Below, piece by piece: positions 15,142 through 37,442 of a stretch of 49,542 nucleotides of DNA. The position numbers were made by a program, and so were the translations under genes. Under the pieces are notes generated by a model. It did not search any database and was not told the DNA's origin. It saw only the letters and a program-made list of their open reading frames with translations. The stretch comes from Myxococcales bacterium. GTDB lineage: Bacteria > Myxococcota_A > Polyangia > Polyangiales > Houyiibacteriaceae. The DNA is taken from assembly GCA_019637115.1 (NCBI GenBank), contig JAHBWH010000046.1, positions 1 to 49,542 on the forward strand. Direction: 5' to 3'. Numbering within the stretch: the stretch's first letter is position 1; every line of letters starts with the position of its first letter.

Positions 15142-16608
15142 GCCGCTCGACCTCCCGTGAACGGGGCTCGCCACCGAGCCGCGGGCGTCGCGACGCCACC
15201 CGACGATGACGAGGACGACGAAGACCGCGCCCCAAGGACTGCCGCCCGAGGCGTCGCAGCCACCGCGCCCCCCGCCGGGGCTGCTCGGCGCGGGGCTCGG
15301 CACGTAGGGGACGGGCGTGGTCGCCGGTGCGTTGCCGCAGAGGGAGTGGACACGGCCGTCGGCGCAGAGCCCGTCCAACGCGTACGCCGCGGACACGTGA
15401 AACGACGCCGTGCTCCGACCCGGTGGCACGAGATCTTCGAACAAACAACGCGACGTCTCTTCGCGGCAATACCCGTGCGGGGTTCCGGCGATCTGCTGCA
15501 TCACGCACGAGGTCCCGAGTCCAGCGACCAAGATGCCGACGAACGCATGGCCCCCGCCCTGTCGCGCGAAGGTACCTCCGCCGGAGTTTCCGCCGAGCAC
15601 GTCCGCGTGCGAGATGAAGAAGTCCCGCGCGAAGCCAGGCATGTCTCGGATGCTCTGGGAGATGTGCCGTGGGTTGTTGATCCCCCCGAGGAAGCCCGAA
15701 TTGTCACTGACGGTCATGATCTCGTCGTCGCTGATCTTCACCGGCAAACCGGCGCCATGGCCGATCGCCCAGATCGGTCGCCCATGCTGCGGCGCGCTGC
15801 GGTCGACGGGCACGGGCGCGTGGGGCTCGCTCACGGGGGAGGGGGTGGTGCCGCGACGCTCGCGCTTGATCGTGAACACGACGTAGTCGTCGCGCACGTC
15901 ATCGACGCAAGTGCTCTCGCAGCGGTTGACCATCCCCGAGGTGTCGCAGACCCCCTGCGCCCCACACCAAGCGTCCTCGTTGCAACGGCAAAAACCCGTG
16001 GTTCCCGAGGTGTCGCAGTCTGCGCCCGGCCCGCAATCCCCGTCGTCCACGCAAGTCGTCAGGCGCGGGCGGGGGCAGCTCGGCGCGACGCCGGCGAGGA
16101 TCTCGTGGCAGTAGTAGACGTCGCGGTCGTGGAGCACCTCGGCTCGTCGGCCTTCTGCCTCCATCCGGAAGTTGAAGACGACGGCGGTTCCGTCGCAAGG
16201 GAGATCTCCATCGAGGACGGCTTGGTCGAAGCAATGCCCCGCCGAGATCACCGTGTCACCGTCGACGAGCGTGCCACTGCAGAAGGGGACGACCTCCTCG
16301 CATTCGTACGGTTGGCCGGGGCACAGGCCTCGGTCGATACGGAAGACGCTCTGGAAGCGCGCTGCGCTCGAACCGGGCACGGGCGAAACCTCACCCGACC
16401 GGACCAGCGCCACCGTAGAGCGCTGCGCGAGCTGCTGCAGGTCCGGCGGCGCTTCGTACCAGTTCAGGCGGTCGTCGGTCCCGATGATCGCCGGTTGAGA
16501 CATGCTGCCGATCTCGTCCGCTCGGGTCTCACTTGGCGCCCACGACGCGGCTGTCGACATCGCGGCCAACAGCGCGAACCCGAACGTCACTCGTCGCTTG
16601 TCGTCCAT
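13894..16608 (-). CDS. Trypsin-like protease with MYXO-CTERM-like tail, in-frame fused to a Cys-rich lipoprotein
   Basis: One uninterrupted frame of 904 residues appears to hold two proteins. Residues 1-475: signal peptide, then a chymotrypsin-fold serine protease with VISAGHC (His125), DYVVFTI (Asp241) and GGNSGGG (Ser342). Inserted Cys-rich EGF-like segments (CVDDGDCGPGADC, CRCNEDAWC) sit between the His and Asp. It then runs through a Pro/Ser linker to GGCDASGG, a hydrophobic segment (458-470) and WRRDARG, which is the layout of a MYXO-CTERM sorting signal. Residues 490-904: a complete lipoprotein signal ending SFVAAC, DAG-rich linker, calcium-binding-like DLDGDGEVD and DADGDGRVT motifs, and a Cys-rich C-terminus. 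No stop exists in any frame near the junction and third positions stay GC-rich, so the fusion looks genuine rather than a sequencing slip. An internal TTG at 15141 after GGGAGG could also start the second protein separately. Confidence 0.85.
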   Translation of the reverse strand: MDDKRRVTFGFALLAAMSTAASWAPSETRADEIGSMSQPAIIGTDDRLNWYEAPPDLQQLAQRSTVALVRSGEVSPVPGSSAARFQSVFRIDRGLCPGQPYECEEVVPFCSGTLVDGDTVISAGHCFDQAVLDGDLPCDGTAVVFNFRMEAEGRRAEVLHDRDVYYCHEILAGVAPSCPRPRLTTCVDDGDCGPGADCDTSGTTGFCRCNEDAWCGAQGVCDTSGMVNRCESTCVDDVRDDYVVFTIKRERRGTTPSPVSEPHAPVPVDRSAPQHGRPIWAIGHGAGLPVKISDDEIMTVSDNSGFLGGINNPRHISQSIRDMPGFARDFFISHADVLGGNSGGGTFARQGGGHAFVGILVAGLGTSCVMQQIAGTPHGYCREETSRCLFEDLVPPGRSTASFHVSAAYALDGLCADGRVHSLCGNAPATTPVPYVPSPAPSSPGGGRGGCDASGGSPWGAVFVVLVIVGWRRDARGSVASPVHGRSSGLAWRTGVLALVSFVAACSSDGGPSGTPDAGREAPRVDAGAEVEPDDFDARHVHRYVASSILTRARSGDVGVDLDGDGEVDNAFGALSSALADVGVDLNRMIYETMLEGDFVLLGRLGLAEDGAASLRVYRGQPGTPPDPSGEGLYQPTADGAFADLRGRYEPPNVRFRGDTDAARVRFPLSGGDAVELPLVRVRAAGEMPSLRATMNLGGLLAVAEVDGVLTQILAGFQGDPRIMVLDADGDGRVTAAEVRANAMLGPLLEPDVDVDADGTMDHLSFGVRVNWVRGYFEDERRAIVATGPGGAFKNDGMHMCVPDPCGAATTCSECNGDDPAFRACGWCPGTGCIASSQMATCETEWQSRLSSCVECGGFATQTACARGDARCAWSASCGRCVNGAFCSTIPSECTDLRDARSCE
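15973..16007. repeat. 35-bp segment of the protease gene also found at 20326
   Basis: These 35 bases, which encode part of the Cys-rich insert of the serine protease, occur exactly at 20326-20360 between two other repeat segments. The second copy is outside any protease gene, so it is best read as a relic of a duplicated protease region. Confidence 0.85.
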
Positions 16609-16877
16609 CGATCGCTCCCTGCCGCGCAGAGGTCCCCAGCGCAGGTGCTGCTGGCGGCTGCCGTCGGGGCCTCGCTCGAGGCGCCGCGCGCGAGCAACGA
16701 GCGCTGGGGTGTCGAAGCAACGGCCACCTCACCGACTCTGTCGATCGTGGACCATGACGCGACGACAAACCGCGCTACGCGCCTATTTTTCAGCCGTGTC
16801 AGCGCTCCGATCCGCCAACATGTACAAGGTTGTCCAAGGTTGCCGCTCACCGCCGAGAGGACCCTCGGGTCGAGCCC

Positions 16878-17061
16878 GGTCCGCGTCGGCCGGCACTTCT
16901 GGCGGGTGATCGAGCAGCGCCCGCACGTTCAGGCTCGCCTCGTGATCGCGCGCCTCCGAGCTCGCGCGCGCCCTCCCAGAAGCCGCGCGCGCTCCGATTG
17001 CTCGCCGCGTGCGCCCGCGTCGCAAAGAACGTTCGTCAGGGCCCGGAGCGATCGAGCTCGT
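16878..17061. repeat. Direct repeat R1, copy A
   Basis: This 184-bp segment matches 20360-20540 with five substitutions and one 3-base indel, all in the first 50 bases; the rest is identical. It lies in the intergenic region downstream of the DUF6940-like gene. It contains no obvious gene or hairpin pair typical of a transposon. Confidence 0.9.
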
Positions 17062-17235: not shown

Positions 17236-17837
17236 TCAGGCGCGCTTGTACGGCGCGTGCCGGTAGTACTTCGGGCGAGCGTCGAGGCGCACGTGGAGCC
17301 AATCGACGCCGAGGCCCGCCGTGCTGAGCCAGACGGTGGCCGCGGTGCGGGCCCGCAGCTCACACAGCGCGGCGCCGACGGCGGCGAAGAGCGCATCGAC
17401 CTGCGCGACGGCGCCCCGCGAACGAACGACGCGAGGTGCCCGTAGAAGGCGCGGCCGGCCGACTCCGATGGCACCACAAGCGTCGCGTCCCCACATAAGT
17501 TGGCGAAGGTCGCAACGAGCCCGACCGAGCGCTCGAGGTGCTCACGAAAGGGAGATGGATCCGGGGTCGTGCGCTCGAACGCTCGGGTGGGCACGAGCAC
17601 CCACTCGACCTCCGAGCTCGATCCCTCCCGCCATGGCGCGCACTCGAAGAAGTAGGCGCGGGCATCGGCGCTCGTGAGCGTCTCGATGAGGACCCGGCGC
17701 AGCGCGCTCTCGTCACGGAGGCCACGGGAGAACGCCTCCCAGCACAGCGGAGCGCCGTCGCGTCGCGGATGGTAGGTCGGCGTCGTGGCGTCGCGACGCT
17801 CGATCTCGAACCCATCGTGAGCAGCGACGACCGTCAT
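17236..17837 (-). pseudogene. DUF6940-like gene with a single-base frameshift
   Basis: Two overlapping frames together make a ~200-residue protein of the DUF6940 type. The first frame (17837 to about 17415) reads from MTVVAAHDGFEIER through CWEAFSRGLRDE, FFECAPW and NLCGDATLVVPSESAGRAFYGHLASFVRGAP. The second frame (about 17410 to 17236) continues with AQVDALFAAVGAAL, TVWLSTAGLGVDWLHVRLD and ends PKYYRHAPYKRA. The WLST-G-G-V-x-WLHVRLD-x-RPKYY ending is the family hallmark. One missing base near 17411-17416, in GGGGCGCC, restores the whole protein. The cause is a recent mutation or an assembly error. The function of the family is unknown. It lies 46 bases after the SRPBCC gene on the same strand. 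Confidence 0.78.
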
Positions 17838-17840
17838 GAC
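17793..17840. repeat. Repeat R4, copy A (5' end of DUF6940-like gene)
   Basis: These 48 bases cover the start of the DUF6940-like gene and match 23314-23361 with two differences. The second copy is a stray fragment, suggesting a former duplicate of this gene near 23.3 kb. Confidence 0.8.
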
Positions 17841-18577: not shown

Positions 18578-19312
18578 TCACGGTGAGGACTGCCGAGTCC
18601 ACGTCGCGGACAGATCCTCAGCGATCTTCTGGACCTGCTCCACCCGCTCAATCGCGTAGAGCGGCGTCGATCGAAACGGCTCGGAAACCGTAAACACCAA
18701 CGTGCGATCACCAGGATTCCTCAGCTTCACGCCCTTCGGCACGATGACAGGGGCCGCCGTTCGCAGTTCGGTGTTGCCCTCCTTCATACCCCGATCAATC
18801 TGAGAGAGGATCCGCCGTGTCACCCCTCGCTTGATGCGGAAGGGCTCGTTCGGCGGATAGCCAGGACACGCGAGTCGGGCCTTGGAGAGGACGCCGCACA
18901 GTAGCTCGGGCTCGAAGCCCGATTCCCTCGGGTGGTAGATTCGGACGCGCACGAACGCGAGCGCGGAACCCTGGGGGACGTCGCGCGGCCCTGCGCGGCG
19001 CCGGTCGTCCTCCTGCTCGTCGTCCGACTCGTCACCCCCGTCGCCCTCCTCTCCCTCCTCCTCTTCGTCCCCGGCGATGCCGTCCTCCCCCCGCACGTAA
19101 AGTCTCCCCTTCCACTCTCGGAGGATACGGTTGGTCTCCCTGCCCTTCCCGGAGCCAGGGATCACGGGCCAGGCCACGAACCCGTGCTGGCCCATGGCCG
19201 TGTCGAGTTCTCGCAGCAGCGCGTCGACCTCGGAGTAGAGATCCAACACAGCGCGGACGGCCGTGCCGACCGCCTCCTTGAACTCGTCACGCTTCAGCTT
19301 TCCCTCGACCAT
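18578..19312 (-). CDS. Unknown protein with acidic low-complexity segment, partner of nuclease-like gene
   Basis: The ATG at 19312 has GGGAGGG five bases upstream, a strong site that supports an independent start even though the frame is open further upstream. The 244-residue protein has a helical N-terminal part (about 1-50, MVEGKLKRDEFKEAVG... LYSEVDALLRELD), a central GFVAWPVIPGSGKGRETNRI segment, a run of Glu/Asp/Gly (about 80-105) and a mixed C-terminal domain. No family is recognised. Its third positions are less GC-rich than those of neighbouring genes, suggesting transfer. It lies 28 bases after the inferred true stop of the nuclease-like gene at 19341, so the two look like one operon. 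A nuclease-associated regulator, inhibitor or specificity subunit is a possibility only. Confidence 0.72.
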   Translation of the reverse strand: MVEGKLKRDEFKEAVGTAVRAVLDLYSEVDALLRELDTAMGQHGFVAWPVIPGSGKGRETNRILREWKGRLYVRGEDGIAGDEEEEGEEGDGGDESDDEQEDDRRRAGPRDVPQGSALAFVRVRIYHPRESGFEPELLCGVLSKARLACPGYPPNEPFRIKRGVTRRILSQIDRGMKEGNTELRTAAPVIVPKGVKLRNPGDRTLVFTVSEPFRSTPLYAIERVEQVQKIAEDLSATWTRQSSP

Positions 19313-19340
19313 CTCGCCCTCCCAAGGCACATCCGCCCGA

Positions 19341-20197
19341 TCAGGCCCGGGTCGCCGGCGGCCACACGACGATGCACCCGCCCGCAGCCGCGACGCGAGC
19401 TCAAGCTTCCGGAGTGCCCCGTGCTCGGTCATCCAATCACGGAAACGCGGCTTCCACGGTTGCGGGCCCAGCCGCCGCTCCACGCGGGCGGCGCGCACGG
19501 CCCGCGCGACCTTCGTGCTCCACAGCCCTTGGAAGCCCTGGAATGCCTGGAGCCCGCGACGTTCGAGCAACGCCCGAAGGTCAGCCTCCCACCACCGGTT
19601 CGAGAGGTCCTCGCGCCGCGCTCGTGCAAGTAGCTCGGCGTGGAGATTCTCCCAAGTGAGCAGGTACAAGCGGGCGTCATCACCCAGGAGACCCCGCGAG
19701 GTCTCCAGCTCCTTCCTCGCCTTCCGCATAGCGCGCGCTCTGACGAGATAGACGACGCAACGCGAGGTCGTCCCGTCGATCGCCGCCCGCACGTCGCCCG
19801 GATAGAGCGCCGCCTGCTCCACGGGGGGATGAATCGAGCGCCACTGCCGCGCGAGTTGATCGCGCAGCGCGCCCTCCTCATCGTGGCCCGCGCCGCTTTT
19901 GCCCGAGAGGTACTTCGCCTCGATCAGGAGCAGGGAGGAGCCGATGCGCAGCAGTAGGTCGGGTTCGATCGTCTGCAACCGGGGCCAGAACCTGAACCAC
20001 TGTGGCCCCCCATCGCCGCTGCCGAGATCCAAACCATGTCCATCCTCGTCACGTGCGTGTCGAAGCCACGCGGTGACGAGATCCCACGCGCCAGCAAGGA
20101 AGAGCGTTCCCCAGACCGTGGAGGTGAGGACGTCCTCAGCGCGCTCGTGCTCGGGTGCGTCCGGGACGAGCTTTCCGTGGATCTCTGCATGGAACAC
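19341..20197 (-). CDS. PD-(D/E)XK nuclease-like protein, frameshifted near its 3' end
   Basis: With the GTG at 20197 the protein begins MFHAEIHGKL, followed by EDVLTSTVWGTLF and then IEPD-LLLRIGSSLLL-IEAK (Pro79, Asp80, Glu93, Lys95). That is a textbook PD-(D/E)XK catalytic pattern, so DNA cleavage is likely. The frame runs on uninterrupted into the next gene, giving 551 codons from 20233 to 18578, but the last part before 19312 has poor third-position GC and an Arg/Gly-rich translation. In the neighbouring frame from about 19385 the codons have GC at every third position and read GCIVVWPPATRA then TGA at 19341. A single missing base near 19381-19388 thus explains the apparent fusion. The full-length product would be about 285 residues. 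Family name not recognised; defence or DNA-processing roles are plausible. Confidence 0.72.
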
Positions 20198-20203
20198 GGC
20201 ACG

Positions 20204-20329
20204 AGGCTCGCATGATCCTCGTGCACCGGGCAACGTGGTGGCCCCGCTGCAGCCAGCCTCGGGACGTGCGTTCGGCGCGGCGAGTCCCGTCTCGACGAGG
20301 CGGTCGCGTGGAGCAGCGTTTCATGGTCC
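20204..20329. repeat. Direct repeat R2, copy B
   Basis: These 126 bases align without gaps to 23365-23490, with roughly ninety percent identity by eye. This copy begins seven bases upstream of the nuclease-like gene start. Confidence 0.88.
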
Positions 20330-20360
20330 TCGTTGCAACGGCAAAAACCCGTGGTTCCCG
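20326..20360. repeat. 35-bp relic of protease gene
   Basis: Exact copy of 15973-16007, located precisely at the joint between R2 and R1. Confidence 0.85.
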
Positions 20361-20540
20361 GTCCACGTCGGCCGGCGCCTCTGGCGGGTCGAGCAGCGCC
20401 CGCACGTTCAAGCTCGCCTCGTGATCGCGCGCCTCCGAGCTCGCGCGCGCCCTCCCAGAAGCCGCGCGCGCTCCGATTGCTCGCCGCGTGCGCCCGCGTC
20501 GCAAAGAACGTTCGTCAGGGCCCGGAGCGATCGAGCTCGT
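20360..20540. repeat. Direct repeat R1, copy B
   Basis: Second copy of the segment at 16878-17061. It extends a few codons into the 3' end of the lipoprotein gene at 20515. Confidence 0.9.
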
Positions 20541-23260: not shown

Positions 23261-23313
23261 CGTGTGACTTGGCGTCACGAACACTGCGCGATCTCTGGCG
23301 AAAACAGCGGCGC

Positions 23314-23361
23314 GCGACGCTCGATCGCGAACCCATCGTGAGCAGCGACGACCGTCACGAC
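23314..23361. repeat. Repeat R4, copy C
   Basis: 48 bases matching 17793-17840 with two differences. The matching gene body is absent here, so this is a relic. Confidence 0.8.
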
Positions 23362-23364
23362 TCC

Positions 23365-23490
23365 AAGCTCGAATGATCCCCGTGCACTGGGCAACGTGGT
23401 GGCCCTGCTGCAGCCCGCCGCGGGACGTGCGTTCGGCGCGGCGAGTCCCCTCTCGACGAGGCGATCGCGTGGAGCAGCGCTTCATGGTCC
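23365..23490. repeat. Direct repeat R2, copy C
   Basis: Gap-free match over 126 bases to 20204-20329. It lies about 105 bases upstream of the FGE-domain gene. Confidence 0.88.
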
Positions 23491-23571: not shown

Positions 23572-26500
23572 TCAGTCCGCCAGCAGGCGCTCGAGCTCGG
23601 CGAGATCGATGCGGCGGTCGGCGTCGCCCGCGTCCGAGAGGATGCTCTCCGCGAGCTCGCGCTTGCGCGCGTGCAGCTCGAGGATGCGCTCCTCGATGCT
23701 CTCGGCGAGCACGAGGCGATATACCGTGACCGGTCGCGTCTGGCCGATGCGGTGCGCGCGATCGCTCGCTTGGTCCTCCGCGGCAGGGTTCCACCACGGG
23801 TCGAGGTGGATCACGTAGTCGGCGGCCGTGAGGTTCAGCCCGGTGCCGCCTGCCTTGAGGCTGACGAGGAAGAGCTCACCTTCGCCGTCTTGGAAGGCCG
23901 CCACCCGCTCGGCGCGGGCCTTCGGCGGCGTCGAGCCGTCGAGGTATTGGTAAGCGATGCCCTCGGCGTCGAGCGCCTCGCGCGCGAGCGTGAGCAAGCT
24001 GACGAACTGGCTGAAGACGAGCGCGCGATGCCCGCCCTCTCGCAGCTCGGCGACGAGCTCGCGGAAGGCCTCCATCTTGGCGCTCGGCACCTTGGTACCG
24101 GGCGCGAGCAGGCGCGGATCGCAGCACGCCTGGCGCAGCCGCGTCAGCGCCGCGAGCAGCTCGAGGCGAGCGTCCTTGCCTCGGCCCCCGACCCGCTCCA
24201 GCCCCTCGCGCCGTACCGCCTCGATGAACGCGCGCTGCGCGTCGCTCGGATCGACGCGCAGGACGATCTCGGTCTTCTCGGGGAGCTCGCGGAGCACCTC
24301 GCGCTTGGTGCGCCGCAGGACGAAGGGGCGGACACGCTCGCGCAGCCGCTGCCCGGCGAGCCCCTCCGCGAGGCTCTCCTCGCGATCCATCGCCTTGAGG
24401 TAGCGCTGCTGGAACGCGCGTTGGCCGCCGAGCAGCCCGGGGATCAAGAAGCGGAAGAGGCTCCAGAGCTCGGCGAGGTGGTTCTCGATCGGTGTGCCGC
24501 TGAGCGCGACGCGCGCGTCGGCGTCGAGGCCGTGCACGATCTTGGCGGTCTTGGTCGTCGCGTTCTTGATCGCCTGGGCCTCGTCGAGCACGACGGTCGC
24601 CCACCGGCGTCCGCCGAAGAGTGCCGTGCGGCTCTGGAGCATGCCGTAGCTCGTGACGACGACGTCGAAGCCTTCGGCCGAATCGACCGCCCCTTCGGCG
24701 ACCTCCGCCGCGACGCCGGCGCGGAGCAGGTGCACGCGGAGCGAGGGCGCGAAGCGCTGCGCCTCGGTCGCCCAGTTCGCGAGCACGCTCGTCGGCGCGA
24801 CCACGAGCGCCGGACCCGAGCGCGCGCGGTCAAGCAAGACCGCAAGCGTCTGCACGGTCTTGCCGAGCCCCATGTCGTCCGCGAGGCAGGCCCCGAGGCC
24901 CGCGCGCGCCAGGCGCGCCACCCAGCGGAAGCCCTCGACCTGATAGGGGCGCAGCTCGGCCTCCAGCGTGCGCGGCACCGGCACGTCGGCCGCCATCGCC
25001 TCGCGGATGCGCTCGCGCTCGGCGGCGAAATCTCCTTCGCCCTCGAGGTCGAGCAACGGATCGTCGAGCAACGCGACGAGCGGGTGGAGGGTGCCGTCGT
25101 CCTGCGCGAACGCGTCGAGCCGCGCGAGCGTGCGCTGCAGCGCGCCCTCGATGGCGACGAAGCGGTCGTCGTCGACACGCACGAAGCGCTCGCCGCGGCG
25201 CAGCGCGCCGAGGAGGGCCTCGTAGGCGACGAGGACCGCGTCGTCGAGCTCGACGCCACCAGTCGGCTCGAGCCAATCCCCGCGCTGCGCCGCCACGAGC
25301 CGCACGCCCGACTCGGGTCGCTCGAGCCGGATCGGCGAACCCTCGACCCACTCGACGATCGCGTCGGCGTCGCGGAGCTCGGCGAGCAACGACAGACTCT
25401 CGATCACGTCGAGCGAGGCGATCTGTCGCCCCGCCAGCGTCGGCGCGGTCTCGTAGAGCGCGACGAGCCGCCCCGCCTCCTCGGCGAGGTCGCGCTCGGT
25501 GCGGCGGCCGCCTCCGATGAGCATCGCGTGGCCGCGCCCCGGCTCGGCGACCGGGCCGTCCTCCCCGAGCGGCGTCGCGACGATCTCGTAGCGGAGCCCT
25601 TCGCCCTCGCGACGGAGCCGGACGCGCGGCGCGGGGTCCGCCTTCACGTCCTCGAGCGCGCTGAGCGTCAGGGGTCCGCTGGCGTCGATGGGCGCGACCT
25701 CGGCGAGGCGCTCGAGCAGCGGCTCGAGCTCGTCCTGCGCCTCGAGCGGGATCTTCAACCCCTCCGAGATCGCCCGCGCGAGCGCCTCTTGGCGCGTGTC
25801 CAGCTTCACGACCTCGTAGCGATCGCCTCGATCGTAGATGCCCGACGTCTGCGGGCTGAGCTCGACGGGGAAGCTGTCGTCGCGCACGACGACGCGCAGG
25901 CGCGGCGTGGCGCGGACCACCGGGACGAACGTGTTGTCCTCGCGCACGACGCGCGGGTGTCCCACCAGCGCGTCGAGAAGCTCGCGGCGGGCGTGCACGC
26001 CGGACAGGTAGTAGCTCGCCCCCAACCCGCGCTCGCTCGTCGTGAAGCTCGCCCGCACCGCGTCGTCCTCGGGGCCGAAGGGCATCTTGCTGGGATCGTT
26101 GACGATGGCGCGCAGCTCGACGCGGCGCCCCTTGGTCCATCCCTTCGCGGTGCGTCGCTGCACGCGCGCGCTGAGATCGAAATGCCCCCCCCCAAGCGGC
26201 GTGAGAACCCATAGGAGCCGCTCGACCCGCTCCGACGCCTCCGCCTCGGCGGGAAGGATCGCCGCGCTCAGCCGGGCGAGCGCGCGGCGCCACGGCGGGG
26301 CGACCTCGACCCAACGCGTGAGGTAGCCCTCGTCGCGCTCTCCGCGCAGCGCGCGGGCGAGCGCGAGGTGCTCGCCGCGGATCCACCGGTGAGGGATCGT
26401 CGGCGCGGCCTCCTCGAGCAGCTGCGCGTGGGCCGCGCGCAATCGCGGATCGTCGTCGAGCCAATGGACGACGAGCGACGCGATGAGCCGGTCCCAGGCC

Positions 26501-27468
26501 GTGCGCTTGACGCCGTAGTTGCCGAGCACGGAGGTCGCATGGCGTGGGGTCCCCCGCAGCTCCGCGTGGAGGCGCTCGAGGTGCTCGTTCGCGTAGGGGT
26601 GGAGGAGCTTGGTGCTGAAGCGATCGGGCGGCGTGTCGTTCACGCACGAGAGCGCCTCCAAGAGCCCGAGGGCGCCGCGGAGCGGTCCGTGGCCGGGGAC
26701 CCGCGTCCGCGCCTTCTGGAAGAGCTTCGCGGCTTCGGCGCGGTTGGGCTTCGCCCGCCCGACGAGCGCGGCGAGCGCGCGCGTGGCGAGCGGGACCCAG
26801 AGCCGATCGTCGCCCTCGACCCGCGGGTAGTCCGCGAGCGCCTCGGGGCCCTCGTCGAGGAAGCGAAGCAACGCTTGCCGCGCCGTGAGCACGGGGGCGA
26901 GGGCGGCGTCGCTCGTCTGGAGGTCCGCGGGCCCCGCGATCATCTCCTCCCACGCCTCCGTCGCCCACCAGAAGCGGACGTAGTCTCGCGTGTCCGGCGC
27001 GAAGCGCTCGAGCTCGAAGGGAGTGGGCCCCCCATCGAACGCGAGCATGATGGGGTGCCGCCCCAGGTCGCGGTGGTTGAGGGCCTCCACGGCCCGCGAG
27101 ATCGAGGCCTCGTTCGCGCCGCCGAGGGCCAGCTGTCGAAGGTCTCGGAGCTCGGCGAACGTCCGGAGGCCCCAGTGGGGCGTGACGCCGACGCGCACGT
27201 CCTCGGTGACGGCGTCGAACCGCCCCTCGCGCAGGAGCGCCTCCGTCACCGCGCGCGTGACGCCCACCGTCGCCCGTACGCCCGCGCCCGCGGCGACGAG
27301 GACGACGTCCTCCGAGTCGAGGAGCTCCAGCGCCAAGAGGTACGCCTGGGTGGGATCGACCGTGCGGCGGAGCGCGCGCGAGAAGAGCGACGCGTCCCCA
27401 CGCGCATAGACCGAGCCGAAGGCGACGGCGACGTACTCGAGCAGCCTCGCCCGATCGTCGGGCGGCAT
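23572..27468 (-). CDS. SNF2-family helicase/ATPase with long unknown N-terminal region
   Basis: The 1298-residue protein has a C-terminal SNF2/Rad54-like motor. YQVEGFRWVARL opens lobe one, DDMGLGKT (about residue 863) is motif I, VVAPTSVLANW motif Ia, DEAQ (about 961) motif II and LSGTPIENHLAELWSLFRFL motif III. In lobe two FSQF, YLDGSTPP, LVSLKAGGTGLNLT and DPWWNPAAEDQASDRAHRIGQ are motifs IV-VI. About 835 residues precede it with no motif I recognise. This layout is common in bacterial SNF2 proteins acting on protein-DNA or RNA polymerase complexes; some are linked to phage defence (for example with methylases or nucleases), but no such partner is adjacent. The ATG at 27468 is chosen over the 27-codon Arg/Pro-rich extension. 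It is divergent from the CobW-type gene with 167 bases between. Confidence 0.92.
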   Translation of the reverse strand: MPPDDRARLLEYVAVAFGSVYARGDASLFSRALRRTVDPTQAYLLALELLDSEDVVLVAAGAGVRATVGVTRAVTEALLREGRFDAVTEDVRVGVTPHWGLRTFAELRDLRQLALGGANEASISRAVEALNHRDLGRHPIMLAFDGGPTPFELERFAPDTRDYVRFWWATEAWEEMIAGPADLQTSDAALAPVLTARQALLRFLDEGPEALADYPRVEGDDRLWVPLATRALAALVGRAKPNRAEAAKLFQKARTRVPGHGPLRGALGLLEALSCVNDTPPDRFSTKLLHPYANEHLERLHAELRGTPRHATSVLGNYGVKRTAWDRLIASLVVHWLDDDPRLRAAHAQLLEEAAPTIPHRWIRGEHLALARALRGERDEGYLTRWVEVAPPWRRALARLSAAILPAEAEASERVERLLWVLTPLGGGHFDLSARVQRRTAKGWTKGRRVELRAIVNDPSKMPFGPEDDAVRASFTTSERGLGASYYLSGVHARRELLDALVGHPRVVREDNTFVPVVRATPRLRVVVRDDSFPVELSPQTSGIYDRGDRYEVVKLDTRQEALARAISEGLKIPLEAQDELEPLLERLAEVAPIDASGPLTLSALEDVKADPAPRVRLRREGEGLRYEIVATPLGEDGPVAEPGRGHAMLIGGGRRTERDLAEEAGRLVALYETAPTLAGRQIASLDVIESLSLLAELRDADAIVEWVEGSPIRLERPESGVRLVAAQRGDWLEPTGGVELDDAVLVAYEALLGALRRGERFVRVDDDRFVAIEGALQRTLARLDAFAQDDGTLHPLVALLDDPLLDLEGEGDFAAERERIREAMAADVPVPRTLEAELRPYQVEGFRWVARLARAGLGACLADDMGLGKTVQTLAVLLDRARSGPALVVAPTSVLANWATEAQRFAPSLRVHLLRAGVAAEVAEGAVDSAEGFDVVVTSYGMLQSRTALFGGRRWATVVLDEAQAIKNATTKTAKIVHGLDADARVALSGTPIENHLAELWSLFRFLIPGLLGGQRAFQQRYLKAMDREESLAEGLAGQRLRERVRPFVLRRTKREVLRELPEKTEIVLRVDPSDAQRAFIEAVRREGLERVGGRGKDARLELLAALTRLRQACCDPRLLAPGTKVPSAKMEAFRELVAELREGGHRALVFSQFVSLLTLAREALDAEGIAYQYLDGSTPPKARAERVAAFQDGEGELFLVSLKAGGTGLNLTAADYVIHLDPWWNPAAEDQASDRAHRIGQTRPVTVYRLVLAESIEERILELHARKRELAESILSDAGDADRRIDLAELERLLAD

Positions 27469-27635
27469 GCTCCGGCCGCGCGGCGGGTCGGCGCTGCTCG
27501 TTGGGGCAGGACGCCGGGGGGTATGCGTTTGACGACGTCGAGCGGCCACGCCGCCGGTTCTTTCGACCCGGGCCGACGCTTGTCAAACGGCCGCGCCGCC
27601 TTGCGCGTCGTGGCGCCTCACCCAAGACCCGACGC

Positions 27636-28964
27636 ATGCCGGTTCCGGTCAACGTCATCACGGGCGCGCTCGGGTCGGGGAAGACGACCGCCATCCTCCA
27701 GCTCCTCGCGCGACGCCCCGCGGGAGAGCGCTGGGCCGTGCTCGTCAACGAAGCCGGGCAAGTCGGCGTCGACGGCGCGATCCTCGACGGCCTCGCCGCT
27801 GGAGCCGGCGTCGAAGGCCCGGGGGGCGTCACGATCCGCGAGGTCCCTGGCGGGTGCATGTGCTGCGTCGCGGGGCTGCCTTCGCAGCTCGCGCTCGTCG
27901 ACCTGCTCCGCCGCGCGAAGCCCGACCGCCTCTTGGTCGAGCCGACGGGCATCGGGCACCCGGCCGCGATCTTGGATTCGATCCGCGCCCTCGGCGACGC
28001 GGTGGAGCTCCGCGCCACGTTGACGCTCGTCGATCCGCGCCGCCTCAGCGATGAGCGCTTCCTGCGGCACGAGACCTTCGAGGATCAAGCGCAGCTCGCC
28101 GACGTGCTCGTCGCGACGCACGACGACGTGGTCAGCGACGCCGACCGCGCGCGCTTCTTCGAGTGGGCCGAGGGGTTCTTCCCGCGGAAGGCCGGGGCCC
28201 TGACGATCCGCGACGGCGCGCTCCCCGTGGAGTGGCTCGACGCACCCCACGCGGCGCGGGTGCCCCTACACCCCGAAGCCCACGCGCATGATCACGAGCA
28301 CCACCCGACGACACGCCGACACGACGAGGACGATGGCCACGGACAGCGCGCGGACGAGCGCGAGGCCGGGAGACGTGGACACGAACACCGGCACGGGCAC
28401 GACCACGACCACGGACACCCTCACGACCACGACCACGACCACGGACACGGTCACGGACACGGTCACGACCACGGTCACGGACACGGTCACGGTCACGGAC
28501 ACGGTCACGGTCACGGTGACGACCACGGACACGGTCACGGTCACGGTCACGGTGACGACCACGGACACGGTCACGACCACGGACACGGACACACGCACGA
28601 CCCACACGTCCCGAGCGCGCTGCCTCCCGCCAGACCAGGCGTCCCCCTCCGACTCGAAGGCAGCGGGAGCGGCGTGGTGACCTGCGGGTGGATCTTCCAC
28701 CGCGACGACCGCTTCGACGAGGACGCGCTCGTCGCGCTCTTCCGCCGACGCAGCCTGCCGGCGCGGGCCAAGGGGATTTTCCACGTGAGCAGCGGCCCCG
28801 CGTCCGGGGACGACCCCTACCTCGTCTTCAACCGCACCGTCGAGGGCCTCCACGTTCGACCGGTCGCCTATCGCGGCGAGAGCCGCGTCGAGCTCATCGC
28901 GCTGAGCGACGAACCCTTCGACGCAGACGAGGTCGAGGCCGCCCTCCTCGCCGCGCGACGCTGA
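27636..28964 (+). CDS. CobW/COG0523-type GTPase metallochaperone with His-rich insert
   Basis: The 442-residue protein begins MPVPVNVITGALGSGKTT, giving Walker A GALGSGKT at residues 10-17, then NEAGQVGVD and the metal-binding CMCC motif (Cys74, Cys76, Cys77). The G-domain ends near residue 210. A His/Asp/Gly-rich segment of over 100 residues follows (about 216-323, mostly HGHGHD units), and then the CobW C-terminal domain (about 335-442, with GWIFHRDDRFD). COG0523 proteins insert or deliver metals, mainly zinc, and His-rich loops bind it, so a zinc-handling role is likely. The expected GTP-base motif is replaced by VATHDD, which should be checked. The inverted repeat CGTTTGAC/GTCAAACG at 27526 and 27582 lies in the divergent promoter region. 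Confidence 0.9.
   Translation: MPVPVNVITGALGSGKTTAILQLLARRPAGERWAVLVNEAGQVGVDGAILDGLAAGAGVEGPGGVTIREVPGGCMCCVAGLPSQLALVDLLRRAKPDRLLVEPTGIGHPAAILDSIRALGDAVELRATLTLVDPRRLSDERFLRHETFEDQAQLADVLVATHDDVVSDADRARFFEWAEGFFPRKAGALTIRDGALPVEWLDAPHAARVPLHPEAHAHDHEHHPTTRRHDEDDGHGQRADEREAGRRGHEHRHGHDHDHGHPHDHDHDHGHGHGHGHDHGHGHGHGHGHGHGHGDDHGHGHGHGHGDDHGHGHDHGHGHTHDPHVPSALPPARPGVPLRLEGSGSGVVTCGWIFHRDDRFDEDALVALFRRRSLPARAKGIFHVSSGPASGDDPYLVFNRTVEGLHVRPVAYRGESRVELIALSDEPFDADEVEAALLAARR
28382..28596 (+). repeat. Hexanucleotide repeat CACGNN encoding a His-rich loop
   Basis: Units CACGAC, CACGGA and CACGGT alternate for over 200 bases inside the CobW-type gene and encode HD and HG pairs. The six-base period keeps the frame when units are gained or lost. 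Confidence 0.92.
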
Positions 28965-35422: not shown

Positions 35423-35601
35423 CCTCGGCCGCTCCGGCCGGGCGAGGCTGGACGTCTCAGGCGTCGGAGCCCCGAAGCTCGAGACGTCCCGCGTTGGCGC
35501 CCGCGGCGGGCGGTACGCCTCTGGTGCGCACGACCCGGTTCTCGGGCGCCCGTGAGCAGGTCGCGTGAGCAGGTCGCGAAGGTGTCGCGCGTGGCGCGTG
35601 G

Positions 35602-36018
35602 TCAGCGGATCGACCCGCAGTTGCCGCGGCAATAGCTCTCGAGGTTGCGGTCTCGGATCGAGCCGCAGTTGCCGCGGCAGAGGTGCTCGAGGTCGCTGTT
35701 GCGGATCGACCCGCAGTTGCCGCGGCAGAGGTGCTCGAGGTCGTTGTCGCGGATCGACCCACAGTTGCCGCGACAGAGTTGCTCGGCGTCGCCGTTGCGG
35801 ATCGACCCGCAGTTGTCTCGGCAGAAGTGCTCGAGGTCGTTGTTGCGGATCGAGCCGCAATTGCCGCGACAGGCGTGCTCGAAGTCGCTGCCACTCACCT
35901 GGAGCGCGACCGCCGCCGCCGCGAGGCGCTTGCCGCGATCTTGGCTCGACGCCTGACCGAGGGAGAAGCCGAGGGCGCCGACGACGACCATGAGCGCGAA
36001 GGTGGAGGCGAGCTTCAT
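35602..36018 (-). CDS. Small exported protein with six 16-residue Cys repeats
   Basis: The 138-residue product has a signal peptide (MKLASTFALMVVVGALGFSLGQA) and then, from about residue 43, six consecutive units of the form D-x-E-H-x-CRGNCGSIR-N/D. Each unit is 16 residues (48 bases) and carries two cysteines in a CxxxC spacing, twelve in total. CGSIR is invariant in all copies and CRGNC in five of the six. Protein ends one residue after the last unit. The regular cysteine pairs suggest a rod- or solenoid-like disulphide or metal-binding repeat exported to the periplasm or outside. I do not recognise a family. It is convergent with the HMG-CoA-synthase gene (about 180 bases apart) and divergent from the zinc-ribbon gene. 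Confidence 0.85.
   Translation of the reverse strand: MKLASTFALMVVVGALGFSLGQASSQDRGKRLAAAAVALQVSGSDFEHACRGNCGSIRNNDLEHFCRDNCGSIRNGDAEQLCRGNCGSIRDNDLEHLCRGNCGSIRNSDLEHLCRGNCGSIRDRNLESYCRGNCGSIR
35603..35890 (-). repeat. 48-bp tandem repeats, six copies
   Basis: Each 48-base unit encodes one Cys repeat of the exported protein. Copies differ at scattered positions, mostly in the four codons before the first Cys, while the bases for CRGNCGSIR are nearly constant. Confidence 0.88.
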
Positions 36019-37122: not shown

Positions 37123-37442
37123 AGGCGCGCAGGATACCCTCGTGATCCCCTGCGTGCGCAACGCGAAATCGCAACGAAAACAACGACGCGCCGCGTCAAG
37201 CCGCGTCACGAGCGCTCGGCTCGGCTCCGACGAGGAGCCGTCGTCACCACCCGCGAGCCGCGCGCCTCGGCCTCGGATACCGACTCGGACGCCGACTCGG
37301 ACACCGACTCGGACACCGACTCGGACACCGACTCGGACACCGACTCGGACACCGACTCGGACACCGACTCGGACACCGACTCGGACACCGACTCGGACAC
37401 CGACCCGGACATCTACCGTTGGACGGCAGCGCGTGGCTCGAC
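37123..37442. other. Intergenic region with 12-bp repeats
   Basis: No gene is supported. The left part (to about 37200) is somewhat AT-richer and probably carries the promoter of the gene ending at 36436. The right part is filled by the dodecamer array at 37272. Confidence 0.6.
37272..37412. repeat. 12-bp tandem repeat ACCGACTCGGAC
   Basis: About eleven to twelve units of ACCGACTCGGAC follow each other, with small variants at both ends. Open frames cross it on both strands (Asp/Ser/Thr one way, Ser/Glu/Val the other), but nothing else supports coding. Confidence 0.92.

Follow-up and report, generated by a model that had tools for sequence, protein, structure and literature searches.

A putative PD-(D/E)XK nuclease and its partner in one reading frame: a candidate fused form of the PDC-M15 module in a Myxococcales bacterium

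The locus studied here raises two connected questions: whether the nuclease-like and acidic sequences at its centre belong to two genes or to one, and whether they serve in defence, in a toxin-immunity system or in some other function. The window (the whole stretch of 49,542 nucleotides that was analysed, contig JAHBWH010000046.1) had received a first-pass annotation made from its letters alone, which described a nuclease gene followed by a gene for an acidic partner and did not recognise the pair as a named system. The pair is already catalogued, since PADLOC-DB 2.0 lists PDC-M15A and PDC-M15B as a putative two-gene defence candidate, one of many such candidates that lack a mechanism. The PDC families are putative, were named by 'guilt-by-embedding' and are mostly untested (PMC12988326, PMC10855318), and we found no literature on PDC-M15, experimental reports included. 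New here are the candidate single-chain form, a partner that is likely shared more widely than current models detect, and a lead on the fold of that partner.

One reading frame and its two parts

The minus strand of 18578-20197 is one uninterrupted ORF of 539 codons with a GTG start at 20197, which is exactly the extent annotated at first pass; the 'two genes', however, have no stop codon between them and form a single frame (Table 1). The frame is open back to a TTG at 20233, but the start at 20197 is favoured because it gives the V/M-x-H-A start of the family. The earlier split is understandable, since the start of the second part (B) and its Shine-Dalgarno sequence survive inside the fusion. 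The ribosome-binding site described as strong is indeed so, with GGGAGG 5 nt before the internal ATG, and GGAGG occupies the Shine-Dalgarno position of only 3 of the 311 in-frame start codons found inside twelve other ORFs of the window. The atypical third-position composition ascribed to the second part was not borne out, its GC3 of 0.72-0.88 being covered by the values for the first part (0.68-0.87) and the neighbours (0.79-0.93), and the stretch at the A-B junction is coding-like with a GC3 of about 0.8. We also considered a frame shift at the junction and rejected it; none is needed, as the B start lies in the frame of the A-type tail (PWKPRFR..., ...RRP).

Table 1. Positions of the features discussed in the text, numbered along the window
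Feature	Positions	Strand	Remarks
Candidate fused PDC-M15A-like nuclease and PDC-M15B-like partner	18578..20197	-	539 aa, single frame without stop, conserved V/M-x-H-A start
A part: predicted PD-(D/E)XK nuclease, codons 1 to about 286	19340..20197	-	45% identity to G086 A; AF2 core
B part: partner domain, codons 296-539, from internal ATG 19312	18578..19312	-	34% identity to G086 B
Predicted catalytic P79-D80	19958..19963	-	invariant in 8 sequences
Predicted catalytic E93-A94-K95	19913..19921	-	E93 and K95 invariant in 8 sequences
E21-D22 (ED-x-LTS motif), first helix	20132..20137	-	invariant in 8 sequences
Retained Shine-Dalgarno GGGAGG, 5 nt before internal ATG	19318..19323	-	same GGAGG and 5-nt spacing at G086 B
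Acidic loop DEEEEGEEGDGGDESDDEQEDD, about codons 377-399	19001..19072	-	common to the window and G086 only
Direct repeat immediately upstream of the gene	20206..20329		copy at 23367-23490, 93%
Direct repeat	20357..20540		copy at 16875-17061, 96%

The A part carries the (V/M)FHAEI...EDVLTS N-terminus and the PD...EAK pattern at the residues first reported (P79, D80, E93, A94, K95), and in an alignment of eight divergent members, the window included, E21, D22, P79, D80, E93, K95 and Q114 are invariant. An A-family profile built without the window protein and without its closest relative, the A protein of the Kofleriaceae MAG G086, matched the window protein at E = 2e-22 among 1366 ORFs. The window A part is 45% identical over residues 2-224 to its counterpart in G086 itself (L012; E 1.8e-32), where A is a separate gene, and the alignment extends to RRP, just before the stop codon of that gene. 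The direct match to the PADLOC model PDC-M15A is weak (E 0.0017), while G086 A reaches 2.4e-9 against the same model. Neither A nor B matched any Pfam family at its cut-off, no meaningful sequence relatives were found in the PDB, and likenesses to Hjc-type resolvases and NERD nucleases were weak and stayed below threshold.

The AlphaFold2 model, computed from the window protein and three partial relatives, has a core at residues 13-213 with a pLDDT mostly of 70-90, the remainder being of low confidence. Its elements follow the order helix-helix-strand-strand-strand-helix-strand-helix-strand. PD falls at strand two and EAK in strand three, which places the PD...(D/E)xK residues on neighbouring strands of an alpha-beta-beta-beta-alpha-beta core, as expected for the superfamily in this predicted structure. 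The best solved matches of the A-part model, all with modest scores, are mostly PD-(D/E)XK enzymes (R.BspD6I2 and FokI, Z 6.8; Can2, 6.6; LmuA, 6.0; McrC, 5.6; Shedu, 5.3), and Foldseek alone gave no match at E < 0.001. McrC, Lamassu LmuA, Shedu, Can2 and the type IIS enzymes thus share with A the predicted core fold and the catalytic motif (Z about 5-7), although no sequence similarity to them was detected and the window protein has no ATPase, CARF or other recognised sensor domain. The structural check that the first-pass annotation had proposed came out in its favour, and the model points to the A part being a probable PD-(D/E)XK nuclease that cuts DNA.

The B proteins fall into three groups, namely those of the window and G086, which have the acidic loop; those of G213, G010, G077 and Aquibacillus; and PDC-M15B proper. 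The Glu/Asp-rich stretch reported in the second part is this loop. The window and G086 B proteins gave no direct match to the PDC-M15B models, and thin B profiles gave no link between the groups. Once G077 and Aquibacillus had been added to the profile of the second group, no other sequence from outside that group ranked above the window among the 1366 ORFs (E 0.0011). In hhalign, B of the window and G086 matched B of G077, G213, G010 and Aquibacillus with P 2.7e-5 across some 59 residues at the N-terminus, and a profile joining the first two groups gave P 0.0035 against PDC-M15B over 167 columns. These comparisons suggest that B is likely homologous across the family, which its position and pairing support. 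Further B-like matches in the phylum, obtained with a two-sequence profile, were set aside as they look like acidic low-complexity matches.

The model of G213 B (pLDDT 56.6) consists of a long helix, four to five strands and a C-terminal helix, and the full-length model of the window protein shows in its B part, at low confidence, a long helix (303-334), four strands and a C-terminal helix (519-536). Nearly all of the best structural matches of the G213 B model (Z 5-7.7) belonged to three kinds of protein, namely the Fbxo7/PI31 FP domain, class I secretion chaperones and YbjN, and Foldseek returned no significant match for it. YbjN proteins are thought to act through protein contacts, without enzymatic action (PMC5398634). 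The YbjN and secretion-chaperone folds resemble G213 B in the order of long helix, strands and helix; they differ in having no sequence match to B, and the comparison is made at a pLDDT of 56.6 and with Z below 8, so that the resemblance of the predicted B fold to these proteins is only a lead.

Relatives and genomic context

A whole-protein search of the phylum led to G086, where both halves are separate genes in the same order (A of 297 aa; B of 238 aa, matching the window B part at E 6e-22). The two genes overlap by GTGA, and GGAGG-5nt-GTG precedes B with the spacing seen inside the window ORF. In the Polyangia MAG G213 the A-B overlap is ATGA, and the pair lies directly after hsdR-hsdM-hsdS on the same strand (hsdR-hsdM-hsdS-A-B). 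The search of the phylum with the PDC-M15A model placed A also in G092, G030, G230, G010 and G344. In each of these but G344, which has no recognisable B beside A, the A gene overlaps at its end with a B gene; tblastn with G092 A then gave two distant plasmid relatives, one from Vibrio rumoiensis and one from Ochrobactrum sp., where A and B share 14 bases. For the window protein itself no plasmid relatives were found. Overlapping A-then-B pairs are thus present in eight genomes or plasmids (G086, G213, G092, G030, G230, G010 and the Ochrobactrum and Vibrio plasmids), a favourable outcome of the co-occurrence check proposed at first pass, and the nuclease gene comes first in every pair. A and B are also adjacent in G077.

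Two loci depart from this picture. In G077 (L005, 1159-2498) A keeps the LT-x-S-V N-terminal motif and seems to be without PD...EAK, and B is well kept; going by its sequence, G077 A is possibly a catalytically dead nuclease, in which case nuclease activity may not be universal across the wider family. Aquibacillus rhizosphaerae (L014, 8001-9156 and 15507-15962) has a broken PDC-M15-like pair in which A runs out of frame after 8375 and B is interrupted. On the far side of an Mrp-antiporter-like operon there is another, near-identical B segment, an arrangement that would fit insertion of that operon into B and duplication of a part of B. PDC-M15A was not found in 146 genomes related to Aquibacillus.

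In regards to the catalogued family, the relatives from the same phylum match both PADLOC-DB models strongly (G092 A, 3.6e-26 to PDC-M15A, and B, 6.1e-26 to PDC-M15B; G230 A, 4.6e-17, and B, 3.4e-20), as do the plasmid B proteins with PDC-M15B (Ochrobactrum, 1.6e-56; Vibrio, 1.7e-30). The window gene is tied to PDC-M15 by the homology of its A part, weak in the direct comparison and stronger by way of G086 A and the family profile, and by the same A-B order and small partner size. It differs in that A and B, side by side in the expected order, are fused in one ORF and are not two overlapping genes, and in a B part that is too diverged for the models and has the acidic loop missing from the PDC-M15B-type members. 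With moderate confidence, and through these sequence intermediates, we regard the window gene as the PDC-M15 pair fused into a single gene; current family models miss divergent members such as this one.

A location in or beside known defence genes is seen for G213, Vibrio, G092 and G086 and is not seen in the window; such a location is how the candidate was named and, as far as known, is not required by the PDC-M15 model. In G092 a gene for a PDC-S06 ATPase follows A-B, and in G344 SoFic lies near A. The neighbours of the window gene encode a trypsin-like protein, a polyketide-cyclase-like (SRPBCC) protein, an FGE-domain protein and an SNF2 helicase, and no recognised defence gene was found in this neighbourhood. 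The SNF2 gene (23572-27549) was examined as a candidate DpdE or ZorD and rejected, its high score coming from the general SNF2 helicase part, of which paralogues are common in related genomes. Of the first-pass proposal of a defence or toxin-immunity pair in a variable locus, then, the pairing and the link to defence elsewhere stand, and a recognisable defence island in the window does not.

Two of the related loci have further genes of their own. On plasmid 2 of Vibrio rumoiensis (L023, 3910-12871) the order is hsdM-hsdS-SoFic-PDC-M15A-PDC-M15B-hsdR, all in one direction, which makes it a nested defence locus. In G086 (L012, 6758-7882) a ThsB_TIR protein (Pfam, 1.9e-15) is encoded directly upstream of the A-B pair, and no ThsA was evident near it in the stretch examined.

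Of the genomes sampled in the phylum, about 2% carry the A family. The gene is missing from the one other sequenced genome of the genus and from the genomes sampled for its family, a patchy presence as for mobile defence genes, as far as these sequences indicate. Scans of IMG/VR, INPHARED and PHROGs gave no relatives, and a phage or viral origin was rejected.

Proposed function and competing readings

Our preferred reading, to which we give a probability of roughly 50%, is that the gene encodes a fused PDC-M15 in which a PD-(D/E)XK DNA nuclease and its dedicated partner form a complex cutting incoming phage or plasmid DNA. The N-terminal part would be the metal-dependent nuclease, and the C-terminal part would bind it and most likely control or target it. 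Where the pair is linked to type I restriction, the complex would probably add a complementary restriction activity. The locus could yield the fusion protein alone, or the fusion together with free B from the internal start. Because the genes overlap in the relatives and are fused here, we infer that A and B would form a stoichiometric physical complex; DNA is its presumed substrate, B is presumably regulatory in nature, and the gene context suggests a putative anti-phage role. A parallel in organisation is offered by TgvAB of Vibrio cholerae VPI-2, a restriction module of two genes embedded in a type I R-M operon, comparable to the Vibrio rumoiensis pair, in which both genes are needed and which blocks phages (PMC11411939); TgvAB is GmrSD-related as published (PMC11411939) and, as neither A nor B reached the cut-off of any Pfam family, is not taken to be a relative of A-B. 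A more specific version, which is speculative and to our mind rather improbable, would have a chaperone-like B of the secretion-chaperone/YbjN type hold or aim the restriction nuclease, the window gene being its single-chain form in nature, and free B being produced as well. If true, it would represent a restriction class where a chaperone-like partner, and not a methylase or an ATPase, decides DNA cutting.

The overlapping two-gene layout, with a small, fast-diverging B beside A, is also what a toxin and its immunity protein or antitoxin could look like, and the PD-(D/E)XK-like pairs CdiA-CT/CdiI and TseT-TsiT are among the structural matches. A would then be a DNase harming the host, in abortive infection or as part of a toxin-antitoxin system, B would neutralise it until infection, and the fusion would be a self-inhibited toxin. 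However, every pair begins with the nuclease gene, no domain for export or toxin delivery was seen, the A gene of G344 has no recognisable B adjoining it, and the genes linked to the pairs are mainly those of restriction operons and not of secretion or toxin-antitoxin loci. We hold this alternative to be less supported than a restriction-type defence, and on balance doubtful. The weak likeness to Hjc-type resolvases and NERD nucleases, together with the lack of an adjoining defence gene in the window genome, could instead suggest a housekeeping nuclease for DNA repair or recombination with an accessory subunit, but such a role fits poorly with a family of so restricted an occurrence in the phylum, missing from the other genome of the genus, and with relatives that are carried on plasmids and linked to restriction genes, and we consider it very unlikely.

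The single frame reflects either a genuine variant or an error in the sequence at one stop codon. Loss of the A stop codon through faulty sequencing or assembly, at a locus that really holds two overlapping or abutting genes, is suggested by the separate genes of all relatives, by the intact start and Shine-Dalgarno sequence of B and by an assembly fragmented into 434 contigs; yet A and B are in the same frame, the stretch between them is coding-like, and a single change suffices for the loss of a stop in nature too, and we lean away from an error. If the fusion is real, it would indicate that nuclease and partner work as one complex, and it would offer studies of structure and activity both parts in a single chain. 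For the restriction-type defence that we favour, the relatives inside type I restriction operons are clonable forms for phage tests.

Repeats around the gene

The recombination repeats that were said to flank the pair are present as direct repeats on both sides of the ORF, any role in recombination being putative. In addition to those in Table 1, direct repeats pair 17787-17840 with 23309-23361 and 15973-16007 with 20326-20360. The four pairs are 93-100% identical, lie within an 8-kb region and occur nowhere else in the genome at such strength. One copy of a 35-nt repeat lies inside the trypsin-like gene. In an empty-site comparison with the other genome of the genus, the best SNF2 match ended at a contig edge. 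Short tandem repeats were also found within ORFs of the window at 28335-28617, 35597-35890 and 37272-37411, with spacings of 12/18, 48 and 12 nt, respectively.
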